Source: Bacteriovoracia bacterium (GTDB taxonomy: Bacteria > Bdellovibrionota > Bacteriovoracia > Bacteriovoracales > Bacteriovoracaceae). From it: a DNA stretch of 64,000 nucleotides. The stretch is from contig JAUIIL010000003.1 of NCBI GenBank assembly GCA_030431635.1, positions 248,001 to 312,000 of the forward strand, given 5' to 3'. Below the pieces are notes generated by a model. It made no database searches, was not told where the DNA came from, and worked only from the letters and a program-made list of their open reading frames with translations. Both the position numbers and the translations under genes were made by a program. Positions 2,733 through 55,679 of this stretch are shown here, one piece after another. Within the stretch, counting starts at the first letter, position 1. Each line of letters starts with the position of its first letter.

Positions 2733-3372
2733 CTAGCATTTTCTTTTCTAAATATTGATAAAGAGATTCTTCTAATTTATCGACTCCCTTTTTTGAGAGC
2801 GCAGACAATTCAAATATTTGTTTTAGCATTTTAAACTCAGGAAGAAGTTCTTTTACTTGTAATTTGAGTTTGGCTTTTTCACTTTGTTTTTTTAATTTAT
2901 CTATCTTATTTAAAACCAAGTAAGATTCGTGTGGAAGTTGTTTGATGTAGGATAAAAAGTGTTGATCGGCTTTTTGGTAAGGATGTCTCGCGTCTTGTAT
3001 ATTAATGAGTAAAACAAGAGGAGAGATCAACTGAAAAAAAGTATCCATCAATTGGTTCCAATTTTTCATTGTTCTCTGAGAGACATTGGCATGACCATAA
3101 CCAGGAACATCAAAAAGGTAAAAAACGTTGTCTATTCCATAAATTTCAAATTCAAAAATATTGATCTGTTGCGTCCTTCCTGGGGTATTTGAAACCCTTG
3201 CAGTTTTTTTCCCAAAAAGGGAATTAATAAGAGAGGATTTACCAACATTAGAGCGGCCTAAAAAAGCAAACCCAATAGCTTGCGGATTAAGTTCTAACCA
3301 TGATTGAAGTTGTCCATTTTTTTCAAATCCCATAATGAAATCACATCTGGAAACTTTTAATATTTGGTTCAT
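2716..3372 (-). CDS. engB: ribosome biogenesis GTP-binding protein EngB/YsxC
   Basis: A 218-residue single-domain TRAFAC GTPase, the normal length for EngB (YihA/YsxC), which assists assembly of the large ribosomal subunit. Visible G motifs are G1 GRSNVGKSS near residues 39-47, the switch region TPGRTQQIN, G3 DVPGYG, and G4 NKID. The family-typical N-terminal extension ending in FIMGFEK supports the chosen start. The C-terminal helix SLYQYLEKKM matches the family. It is transcribed divergently from the sigma-54 regulator and converges on the small coiled-coil gene. Confidence 0.95.
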   Translation of the reverse strand: MNQILKVSRCDFIMGFEKNGQLQSWLELNPQAIGFAFLGRSNVGKSSLINSLFGKKTARVSNTPGRTQQINIFEFEIYGIDNVFYLFDVPGYGHANVSQRTMKNWNQLMDTFFQLISPLVLLINIQDARHPYQKADQHFLSYIKQLPHESYLVLNKIDKLKKQSEKAKLKLQVKELLPEFKMLKQIFELSALSKKGVDKLEESLYQYLEKKMLAISET

Positions 3373-3457
3373 AAGTGAAAATTCTCATCTAAAAAATTAT
3401 TGTAGGATTTTATCTCTTTATCAAAAAGTATATAAGCTCGATGAAAAAGGAGATAAT

Positions 3458-4786
3458 ATGCAATCCAATAACTCATCATACTCGAATAATATGAATCAAG
3501 CAATTGAGAATACAGTGTTCTTAAACAAGCATAATCTAGATAATGGCGTCCGACTTAATGATATAATTTTTATAGCTCCTATCTATGGGAGAAAAAGAAA
3601 AATAACTTGTAAGAAAACTCATTATGTCATTATTCATGAAGACTCTGCACTTCAATCTTCGATCAGTTCAAATGAAATCAGGCTTCCAAGGATGAAAAAT
3701 GAAGAGTTTAACCTGGAGTTATCTTTATGTAATCAAACAACAGTTAGTCGTAATGAACAAAAAAGTCGCTATATTCTAAAATCAAAAAATAAAAAACCTT
3801 TCAGGTTAAATAATCAATTTGTTTTCAGTGCACTTCTCGATAGAGGGGATTGCGTTTATATAGGAGATAATAAGATTATTTTTAGTCAAGTAGAGGAGGA
3901 TAAAAAATGTTTTTCTCAGTTTGACCTTGAAAAAAACAAAAAGCTGATTTGTTCCGATTTACCTATTCTGATCCAAGGAGAAACAGGGACTGGTAAAACA
4001 CATTTGGCCCATGAAATCCATAAGGCCAGTGGTGCTTTAGGTCCTTTTGTTCATATTAACCTATCATCATTTTCTTCTCATTTAATTGAGTCAGAGCTTT
4101 TTGGACATGTCAAAGGAGCTTTCACTGGAGCGATGAATGATAAGAAAGGAGCCTTTTCCATGGCCCAAAATGGAACTCTTTTTATCGATGAAATAGACTC
4201 TTTACCCCTAGAAATTCAAACTAAATTATTACTTTTTTTAGATAATAAAAAGTATAGGCCAGTAGGAACAACTAGAGAATTAGAGGTTACGACAAGAGTT
4301 GTTTTTTCAACAGGACAGTGTCTTAAAAAACTAGTTGATAAAAAACTCATGAGAAAAGATTTTTACTTCAGGTTAAGTATGGGACAGACAATTGTTTTAA
4401 AATCAATAAGAGATAATATAAAAGTATTGGAAAGCTTTTGTGAACAATTCTCTTTTGAAAAGCAAGTGAGTTTAACAAAAGGATTAGTGGATTTTTATAA
4501 AACTCTTCCTTGGCCAGGAAACTTTAGAGAGTTAAAAGGTCATTTGGAAAAGAAAGTTATTTTATCTCAAACAAGAAAACTTGATTTTGATAAAGTTGAT
4601 GAACAGCTCATTACAAAAAGCTCAGAGCTACTAAGTTTTGTTGAAAGTGAATCTTGGCCGTGTTTAGAAGAAGTTAAAAAAGAGTATTGTAAAAAAGTTT
4701 ATTACTACTTTAATCAAAATATCAAACTTTCATCATCAAAGTTAGGGATTAATACAAAAACATTGAAAAGAATATTAGGTACCTAG
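3458..4786 (+). CDS. sigma-54-dependent transcriptional activator with FHA-like N-terminus
   Basis: A 442-residue enhancer-binding protein. I start it at 3458, behind AAGGAG at 3447-3452, because the longer reading from 3335 would run back into engB. Residues about 85-145 look like an FHA domain (VSR, then LDRGDCVYIGDNKIIF), a phosphothreonine reader rather than a receiver domain. The AAA+ domain has Walker A GETGTGKT at about 174-181, the sigma-54 contact loop GAFTGA at about 220-225, and Walker B LFIDEID. A short C-terminal region (NTKTLKRIL) fits a Fis-type helix-turn-helix. Such proteins open sigma-54 promoters, usually in response to Ser/Thr kinase signalling. No kinase gene is adjacent. 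Confidence 0.92.
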   Translation: MQSNNSSYSNNMNQAIENTVFLNKHNLDNGVRLNDIIFIAPIYGRKRKITCKKTHYVIIHEDSALQSSISSNEIRLPRMKNEEFNLELSLCNQTTVSRNEQKSRYILKSKNKKPFRLNNQFVFSALLDRGDCVYIGDNKIIFSQVEEDKKCFSQFDLEKNKKLICSDLPILIQGETGTGKTHLAHEIHKASGALGPFVHINLSSFSSHLIESELFGHVKGAFTGAMNDKKGAFSMAQNGTLFIDEIDSLPLEIQTKLLLFLDNKKYRPVGTTRELEVTTRVVFSTGQCLKKLVDKKLMRKDFYFRLSMGQTIVLKSIRDNIKVLESFCEQFSFEKQVSLTKGLVDFYKTLPWPGNFRELKGHLEKKVILSQTRKLDFDKVDEQLITKSSELLSFVESESWPCLEEVKKEYCKKVYYYFNQNIKLSSSKLGINTKTLKRILGT

Positions 4787-53786: not shown

Positions 53787-54452
53787 TTAGTTGAATCCGT
53801 ATAAATTGTTTTGACAGCTAACTCCGGAAAGTCTATTTGGTATCAGGTCTTGAGGAGCTGAAAAACCAAACTGTTGAGCAAAGCCTAGTCTGATAAACTC
53901 AGTACCTAATAAACCTGTTCCCAAGGCTCCATAACCGCAAGAGCTTCCTAAGTACTGATAAGAGAAAATTCCTGCAAGACTATATTGAACAGTATCAAGG
54001 TAGTTACTTGTTATGTGGTATCTTTGGCACATACTAATAACAATATCTGTATAACCTTGTGCAAAGACAGCAACAATGACGTCACCCTGAGGTGTTCTTC
54101 CAATCGCTACCTGTTGTTGTTGAAAATAATAGTTATTATTTGGAATAACCTGTTGATAAGGATATTGCCCACCCGCTAGAGGTTGGGGAATTGAAGTTGC
54201 CCCGATACTTGAGACAAATCCATTTTGATCCCTAAAAGCAATTGTGGCCCTCGTTCCGTTTCCGATAGCTTGACTACACTGAATTTGAGAAATAATTTGT
54301 GTGTCAATAAAATCGTTACCTACGAAACCATTACCAAAAACTTGCCTTGCGGGACCACCTGGTGAATCATCCCCCCCACAACTCACTAATGTAAGTGACA
54401 TGGTAAGAAGAATGAACAGATGACTCCATTTCTTCATTTTTCTTGAAAGCAT
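53787..54452 (-). CDS. lipoprotein under sigma-54-type promoter, unknown function
   Basis: A 221-residue lipoprotein; the signal ends in LVSC followed by GGDDS. The mature part is rich in Gly, Gln, Asn, Tyr and Phe, with short repeated segments (FGNGFVGNDF) and YFQQQQ, and four cysteines. No family recognised. AGGAG with 8-nt spacing supports ATG 54452. A close match to the sigma-54 consensus lies 40-55 nt upstream, with repeated half-sites further up, so expression is probably regulated by an enhancer-binding protein. It has its own terminator. Confidence 0.75.
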   Translation of the reverse strand: MLSRKMKKWSHLFILLTMSLTLVSCGGDDSPGGPARQVFGNGFVGNDFIDTQIISQIQCSQAIGNGTRATIAFRDQNGFVSSIGATSIPQPLAGGQYPYQQVIPNNNYYFQQQQVAIGRTPQGDVIVAVFAQGYTDIVISMCQRYHITSNYLDTVQYSLAGIFSYQYLGSSCGYGALGTGLLGTEFIRLGFAQQFGFSAPQDLIPNRLSGVSCQNNLYGFN

Positions 54453-54491
54453 AACTATTACTCCTGTGTAAATTTGCTACAACCATGGTTG

Positions 54492-54507
54492 TGCATTATT
54501 GGTGCCA
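54492..54507 (-). promoter_or_regulatory. sigma-54 (RpoN) promoter
   Basis: On the minus strand the sequence is TGGCACCAATAATGCA: GG and GC separated by exactly 10 nt, with TGGCAC at -24 and TGCA at -12. The predicted start point falls near 54482, about 30 nt before the lipoprotein ATG. Confidence 0.7.
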
Positions 54508-54576
54508 GTTTTTCGCCTCCAGAGGGGGAGAGAGAAAAGGTCTCATTTCAATGAGTTAGGGCTGTTTCTACGGGAG

Positions 54577-54628
54577 ATGTCTATTTTAGACTGTTATTAT
54601 TTAGACAGGCCGTTTAGAAAGTAGACAT
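54577..54628. promoter_or_regulatory. candidate enhancer sites (TGTCTA/TAGACA half-sites)
   Basis: Four half-sites occur in about 50 bp: GTCTA-TTT-TAGAC palindrome at 54579-54591, TTTAGACA at 54600-54607, and TAGACAT at 54622-54628. They lie about 95-146 nt upstream of the predicted sigma-54 start, where activator binding sites usually are. They could alternatively serve the divergent gene at 54702. Confidence 0.45.
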
Positions 54629-54701: not shown

Positions 54702-55679
54702 ATGTTCAATCCCTTTAAAGACTGGAAAAAGAGCTTTGCCGATGAAGGTACCAAATTCATGCTTTGGACAGGGGTGAAGGTAACAGCAGTCTCTCTTATT
54801 GTTTCAATCCTCTTGTCCTATCTTATTTGGCTTATCGTAAGCGTAAATGGAATTTTCTTTGAAGTTAGTAGCTTTAGTGGCTTTGAAAGCTTAAGAGAGT
54901 CTTATGCTGACTATATATTCGCTGAACTTGTCGAAACTTCCCTGCCTATTTTGGGTTTTTTTGCTTTTCTTTTCTTCTCAGGGGTCTATCTAGGTAAAAT
55001 CCTGTTAAGACCTTTTATGGTTATTGGAGATTACTGTGAAAGAGTGATTGATGAAAAAGAAACACCGTATGAGCCTGATCGTTTTTCTGATTTTAGACTT
55101 TTAACGAGGTTTAGTGATTTTTTCTTCGCCTTCGCTCTCTCCTGTCGAGAACAAAAAGCATTAAGGGAAAATACGATTCCTCCACAATTTCTCCAGGTTA
55201 GAAAACCTGTTTTTGATAATGTTTTCTTTTTTCATTTTCTTCTTTATACGGCGATTGTTTGTTCTATATCAGTTCTTATTCTATCTAATATGGCCATTTC
55301 TATTTATGAGAACATCGTTTCTCTGGCCATTACTCATATAAAAGTTCAAAAGATATCCATTGAAAACTATATTTCCTCTCAATCCTATTTAATAGAATCT
55401 ATTATTTATATGATTGTTTCTCTAATGGGGACTGGGTATATGGCCCTTTCTTTTCATCTCTATGGCAAAGTTTCTGGAGCTGCTTTTGGTTTTTTTGCCA
55501 CAATGAAGAGTTTTATGAAGGGAAACTACAAAGCAAGAGTGCATTTAATTGGTTACAATCAAGTTCGTCCTTATTCCAGAGCTTTTAATAAATACCTTGA
55601 TTATTTGGAGAGAAACTTCGCAGATCAAAACAACCCGAAAAAAATGACCCCTCCAATTACCCTTGCAAATAATGAGTAG
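54702..55679 (+). CDS. polytopic membrane protein of unknown function
   Basis: A 325-residue protein with about four transmembrane helices (near residues 22-47, 78-100, 175-198 and 230-255). A cytoplasmic segment after the second helix (LLRPFMVIGDYCERVIDE) is similar in style to a HAMP-like linker, and another follows the last helix. No catalytic or signalling domain is visible. It is divergent from the sigma-54-controlled lipoprotein and is followed by the DsbA-like gene. Family not recognised. Confidence 0.7.
   Translation: MFNPFKDWKKSFADEGTKFMLWTGVKVTAVSLIVSILLSYLIWLIVSVNGIFFEVSSFSGFESLRESYADYIFAELVETSLPILGFFAFLFFSGVYLGKILLRPFMVIGDYCERVIDEKETPYEPDRFSDFRLLTRFSDFFFAFALSCREQKALRENTIPPQFLQVRKPVFDNVFFFHFLLYTAIVCSISVLILSNMAISIYENIVSLAITHIKVQKISIENYISSQSYLIESIIYMIVSLMGTGYMALSFHLYGKVSGAAFGFFATMKSFMKGNYKARVHLIGYNQVRPYSRAFNKYLDYLERNFADQNNPKKMTPPITLANNE

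Follow-up and report, generated by a model that had tools for sequence, protein, structure and literature searches.

A probable sigma-54 promoter and its conserved upstream activator site before a lipoprotein gene of Bacteriovoracales, and its alternation with sigma-28 promoters in relatives

Introduction

A lipoprotein gene of the Bacteriovoracaceae is likely to be driven by a sigma-54 promoter together with a distant enhancer-binding protein, and in several related lineages its orthologs appear to have a sigma-28 (FliA) promoter instead. This alternation between two sigma factors is the most interesting result of our analysis. The gene lies in a 64 kb stretch of DNA (the window, to which all unlabelled positions refer) that corresponds to C3:248001-312000 of a 3.3 Mb host genome in 19 contigs. 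Sequence comparison supports the promoter, the activator site, the distance between the two, and the alternative use of sigma-28; the binding of an enhancer-binding protein to the site, DNA looping, the timing of expression and the surface role of the product are what we infer.

In the mechanism that we propose, RNA polymerase carrying sigma-54 (RpoN) would start the lipoprotein mRNA at about position 54482 from an element at 54492-54507. Initiation would take place only with a dimeric AAA+ enhancer-binding protein on the sequence TGTCTA-N5-TAGACA (54611-54627), about 100 nt further up, and the bound activator would contact the promoter through DNA looping. The same activator site would serve a wider set of exported-protein genes in the host genome, and in relatives that lack the sigma-54 promoter the orthologous lipoprotein gene would be read by sigma-28. 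Because FliA would read the ortholog in these relatives, the product most likely belongs to the surface of the motile, prey-seeking (attack-phase) cell. In Bdellovibrio, the free-swimming attack phase has been proposed to have FliA as its master regulator, and many members of the Bacteriovoracales prey on bacteria. Our literature search found no description of a sigma-54 regulon in Bacteriovoracales, and the main text of two sigma-54 surveys names neither Bdellovibrio nor Bacteriovorax.

The lipoprotein gene and its neighborhood

The lipoprotein gene (53787-54452, minus strand) encodes 221 aa with a signal peptide and a lipobox, LVSC25. Across a 44-row family alignment Cys25 is invariant, and Cys59, Gly118, Cys142, Cys172 and Cys213 are likewise invariant or nearly so. 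The first-pass annotation had described an unknown, Gly/Gln/Asn-rich lipoprotein. A Pfam and NCBIfam profile search indeed found no family for it, but the Gly/Gln/Asn richness is a property of the linker only, and the traits of the family are the lipobox and the four further cysteines. An AlphaFold2 model built from the 44-row alignment gives a beta-rich domain with a mean pLDDT of 68 and a pTM of 0.61. Searches with this model returned weak roadblock/longin/PAS-GAF-like matches (best Foldseek E 0.43, best VIA Z 2.9), and no confident match for the fold was found in either Foldseek or VIA. By analogy with the FliA-type orthologs discussed below, the protein may be an attack-phase surface protein.

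The neighbors of the gene are SpoIID-like and Amidase_3 genes, a divergently transcribed gene for a conserved membrane protein (54702-55679, plus strand), and DsbA-like, HU-like and FliM/FliN-like flagellar genes. The fliA gene itself is found at C3:315783, about 13 kb past the lipoprotein gene, and throughout Bacteriovoracaceae/Halobacteriovoraceae the lipoprotein gene stays beside the flagellar cluster. The membrane protein has no Pfam or NCBIfam match; its gene is a good marker of the locus across the family.

A direct sequence search with the lipoprotein found a single relative among 59 genomes; in GTDB contigs it found none. The reason is the rapid divergence of the family. Detection was solved through synteny with the divergent membrane protein, which is present in 50 of 76 family genomes, and a lipoprotein was located at the syntenic position in 37 of the 49 loci examined. 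The shared lipobox, four later cysteines and one glycine indicate that these syntenic lipoproteins are one family. Relatives from the same family include Bacteriovoracaceae bacterium, Halobacteriovorax marinus and Bacteriovorax stolpii.

The sigma-54 promoter

The element TGGCAC-CAATAA-TGCA (TGGCACCAATAATGCA, 54492-54507, minus strand) has the exact GG-N10-GC spacing of a -24/-12 promoter within TGGCAY...TGCW and is well placed before the gene. As the first-pass annotation had said (about 40 nt before the ATG, with a good ribosome site), it stands 39 nt ahead of the ATG at 54452, and an AGGAG ribosome-binding site occupies 54461-54465. From the spacing to the -12 element, transcription is predicted to start at 54482. 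The host genome encodes one RpoN and nine activators with the GAFTGA contact motif, and a conserved palindromic activator site lies upstream, on average 96 nt above -24. A perfect 14-bp palindrome, ACAACCATGGTTGT (54479-54492), spans the predicted start and is the sole such site in the window; it was considered as an operator and set aside, being absent at the G034 ortholog (L002).

TGGCAY-N6-TGCA has a single match in the 64 kb window where 0.14 are expected. One match or more turned up in 12 of 100 shuffles, so that the window by itself is weak evidence for a sigma-54 site. Pattern searches of the whole host genome gave 15 matches to TGGCAC-N6-TGCW, the majority of them preceding genes, vs 0 for the reversed control pattern. 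Moreover, of the 37 genomes with the syntenic lipoprotein gene, 22 have TGGCAY-N6-TGCA ahead of it in the same position. When 68 named loci with a lipoprotein were classified (their genomes overlap with the 37-genome set), 23 were assigned to sigma-54 and 42 to FliA, and three fell below the thresholds. Among these three, L239 is a sigma-54 element with one base changed and L252 looks like L084, a sigma-54 sequence, but with its start misplaced; the other is L205. Overall, 23-25 loci are of the sigma-54 type. The best evidence for both promoter and activator site is that about 25 other genomes have them conserved at this locus; together with the genome-wide enrichment, this conservation agrees with the original reading of the element, which is very probably a real sigma-54 promoter.

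The activator site upstream of the promoter

Four TAGACA-type half-sites had been reported 95-146 nt further up and taken for activator sites. All four are present: three exact TGTCTA/TAGACA hexamers (54622-54627, 54602-54607 and 54578-54583) and a fourth, AGTCTA at about 54587-54592, with a single mismatch. They span 96-145 nt above the predicted start. Since TGTCTA is otherwise scarce in the window (16 found vs 30 expected), three exact hexamers within 50 nt are unusual.

A Gibbs motif search of the 220 nt above 22 orthologous sigma-54 promoters, made with no prior assumption, returned a 24-mer that scored 486, where shuffled sequence reached 283-297. The motif is the palindrome TGTCTA-N5-TAGACA with NNTG after it. 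The corresponding site in the window, TGTCTACTTTCTAAACG (54611-54627, minus strand, 17 bp), agrees with it at 10 of 12 positions and, measured by the 24-mer, lies 99 nt above -24. This conservation about 100 nt above the promoter upholds the proposal that the half-sites are activator sites. They are better described as a conserved enhancer consisting of this one palindrome, accompanied by partial copies peculiar to the host genome; the additional TGTCTA/GTCTA/TAGACA half-sites on the minus strand (54602-54607, about 54587-54592 and 54578-54583), read directly, are confined to the host genome and are not conserved in relatives. Two of them form a 13-bp palindrome, GTCTA-AAA-TAGAC (54579-54591), of which this is the only occurrence in the host genome. 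As a motif, GTCTA-N3-TAGAC was rejected for want of genome-wide support, with one locus and a higher count for the control.

The distance from the site to -24 is steady among orthologs (mean 96, SD 14) and that to the divergent gene is variable (SD 43), which argues that the palindrome belongs to the lipoprotein promoter. A site score of at least 10/12 is reached at 17 of 27 sigma-54-class loci vs 0 of 42 FliA-class loci (p=3e-11).

Between activator site and promoter lies a possible IHF-like DNA-bending element, TAACTCATTGAAA (54546-54558, minus strand), a weak match at 8 of 9 consensus positions. The full 9/9 IHF consensus occurs in this interval at 4 of 27 orthologous sigma-54-class loci vs 0.3 expected from shuffles, and also at 2 of 42 FliA-class loci. 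A weak motif, CTGAAATTACA, is found 32-45 nt above -24 in most orthologs. A role for IHF-like DNA bending here is thus possible, and the counts are suggestive only.

A wider set of sites in the host genome

With at most one mismatch allowed, the host genome contains 29 copies of the palindrome vs 6 of a control. Almost every copy is intergenic, and the usual position is ahead of the 5' end of a transcript for an exported protein, or only a little within it. For 11 of the 29 palindromes a sigma-54 site scoring at least 14 lies no further than 150 nt away; among control windows this held for 6 of 339 (p=9e-10). The palindrome is upstream of the promoter in seven of these 11 cases and downstream in four, often at about 75 nt on either side. 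Over half of the copies in the host genome have no recognisable sigma-54 site, and the palindrome is enriched in many genomes of the family, not in all. Genome G014 has 15 perfect TGTCTA-N5-TAGACA sites (L304-L318), 14 of them intergenic beside exported-protein genes; 14 of the 15 have no nearby sigma-54 site and one does.

Probable exchange of sigma-54 and sigma-28 promoters

The 15 lipoprotein genomes without a sigma-54 site have TAAAG or TCAAG, a gap of 15-17 nt, and CCGATA before the gene. FliA-promoter scores in these genomes are far above those of shuffles (p=1e-9), and the sigma-54 class scores like shuffles. Among the named loci, TAAAG-N15-17-CCGATA is found at the 42 that lack a sigma-54 site. 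Halobacteriovorax marinus belongs to this FliA class. A comparable search before the divergent membrane gene gave FliA scores no better than shuffles. In Bdellovibrio, the sequence that Karunker et al. mapped in front of attack-phase genes is TTAAG-N16-CCGATA (PMC3627812). The FliA-class lipoprotein orthologs thus have a promoter much like that of the Bdellovibrio bacteriovorus attack-phase regulon; the lineage of the window differs from it in having a sigma-54 promoter and no FliA promoter. The suggestion that the lipoprotein is expressed at a specific stage is in this way borne out indirectly, through the attack-phase-type promoters of its orthologs in sister lineages.

Placed on the tree of the membrane protein, the promoter classes require four changes, at least three of them forced by well-supported branches. 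The sequence data would therefore need control of the lipoprotein gene to have been swapped between sigma-54 and sigma-28 at least three to four times. Loss of a sigma factor was considered as the cause and rejected: RpoN is encoded in 65 of 73 genomes, with the misses mostly in incomplete ones, the FliA-class genomes also encode it, and FliA is found in 8 of 8 genomes tested. Since both classes keep RpoN and FliA is in all eight, the swap is not a consequence of sigma-factor loss.

Alternative explanations and candidate activators

The simplest objection is that the sigma-54 match arose by chance and that a housekeeping sigma factor reads the gene. Shuffled windows do contain such a match often enough to give this some footing. 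Nevertheless, the element has been kept at the same place before the same gene though the lipoproteins are only about 20% identical, and chance would leave the enrichment in the host genome unaccounted for; we regard this explanation as extremely improbable. Our main reservation concerns the palindrome: its reader may work at other promoters as well, or may be something other than a sigma-54 activator. The sites of G014 and over half of those in the host genome, which lack a sigma-54 site, suggest that the reader may use more than one kind of promoter. Were the reader independent of sigma-54, say a global regulator that controls exported proteins through sigma-70 promoters, the proximity of the palindrome to sigma-54 sites would be a coincidence of regulons. 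The G014 sites beside exported-protein genes would fit such a regulator, and the divergent membrane gene could be its target. On the other hand, palindromes of the host genome are near sigma-54 sites 30 times more often than control windows are, at the locus the palindrome keeps a fixed distance from the sigma-54 promoter but a variable one from the divergent gene, and it is gone where the promoter is of the FliA type. All things considered, we find a regulator of this kind rather unlikely.

With a sigma-54 activator as the preferred reader of the palindrome, attention turns to which one. Nine host proteins have the GAFTGA sigma-54 contact motif, five of which have orthologs across the genomes examined, and the identity at their DNA-binding ends is 81% for L050, 80% for L051, 71% for L052, 36% for L054 and 25% for L056. 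The last of these (window 3335-4786) is the regulator at 3458 that had been singled out by the first-pass annotation as an FHA-type sigma-54 activator. It has an intact GAFTGA activator domain, its AAA+ domain is kept in the orthologs, and an ortholog is present in nearly all genomes examined. Its last 48 residues, however, average 25% identity (minimum 12%) vs 43% for the rest of the protein, while the site is nearly constant, and three other activators keep their DNA-binding ends at 71-81%. A Pfam search finds no FHA domain at E<=0.001 in this protein, and no HTH_8 domain. That it reads the palindrome is very unlikely.

A constant site needs a constant reader, which makes L050, L051 and L052 the better candidates. 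Presence and absence could not be used to choose among them, as three site-poor genomes still encode all three, and a search for autoregulation of an activator through the palindrome gave no consistent match. L052 is FlrC-like and heads the flgB-flgC-fliE-fliF-fliG operon region, where it adjoins L059. Three things speak for it, namely its place among flagellar genes, the existence of downstream sites and the alternative use of sigma-28, and we name it tentatively as the first choice among the candidates. L050 (1-2433; G000:C14:164663 onward) is an NtrC-type response regulator with 70-80% identity in eight genomes and is followed by lspA-like and lgt-like genes. LspA and Lgt are lipoprotein-processing enzymes, and L050 could link sigma-54 control to lipoprotein export.

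Some further observations were made around these genes. In 4 of 9 genomes the region upstream of L052 (G000:C3:106150-106243) or its ortholog has a conserved TTGACA that is overlapped by TGTCTAAAAATTGACA or TGTCTGAAAATTGACA. This overlapping element is one base shorter than the activator palindrome and resembles a FleQ-type site. L058, L059 and L060 are AAA+ proteins related to sigma-54 activators without GAFTGA, and L060 (PilZ-GAF-AAA-HTH) adjoins a gene that has both a palindrome and a sigma-54 site (L120).

Comparison with known systems

The arrangement resembles enhancer-dependent sigma-54 promoters of the NtrC/NifA/QseF type, with a -24/-12 element of GG-N10-GC spacing and a palindromic activator site about 100 nt upstream. 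The half-sites of NtrC sites are 11 bp apart from center to center, as in the palindrome of the window. Unlike the sites in those systems, the palindrome here is not attributed to any known activator. The QseF/GlrR consensus, TGTC-N10-GACA (PMC8745638), is close to the TGTC-N9-GACA found here, with a half-site spacing that differs by one base. The published sigma-54 consensus has TTGC (PMC12316311), whereas the base before TGCA is T at only 1 of 27 loci here.

The flagellar hierarchy of polar flagellates (class III/IV; FlrC with sigma-54 and FliA with sigma-28 in Vibrio) uses the same two sigma factors. Further likenesses are the position of the lipoprotein gene beside a flagellar cluster, with FliM, FliN and FliA nearby, and the FlrC-like activator L052, which is encoded in the flagellar cluster at the head of a flagellar operon. 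Most FlrC sites of Vibrio cholerae lie downstream of the start, and they function as true enhancers (PMC6504787); four strong palindromes of the host genome are also downstream of sigma-54 promoters. In contrast to the Vibrio-type hierarchy, the target is a lipoprotein, its ortholog is of the sigma-54 type in some lineages and the sigma-28 type in others, and most of the scanned flagellar cluster has no strong sigma-54 site. The flagellar stretches that were scanned contain one perfect palindrome, between flgE and the next gene and followed by a weak sigma-54 match; elsewhere in them, the only strong sigma-54 site is that of a flgF/G-like gene, and it has no palindrome with it.

Implications

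On balance, we lean toward the view that, within one family, an ancestral lipoprotein gene of the attack phase has passed three or more times between sigma-54 with a dedicated enhancer and sigma-28, with both sigma factors kept throughout, and that TGTCTA-N5-TAGACA would mark an undescribed exported-protein regulon in partial overlap with the attack-phase program. The locus provides a conserved activator site for such a sigma-54 regulon in Bacteriovoracales, and its palindrome is a binding motif that can be used to find the activator. Moreover, orthologs of one gene under the control of either sigma-54 or sigma-28 amount to a natural experiment, which makes it testable whether both sigma factors drive the same stage of the life cycle.
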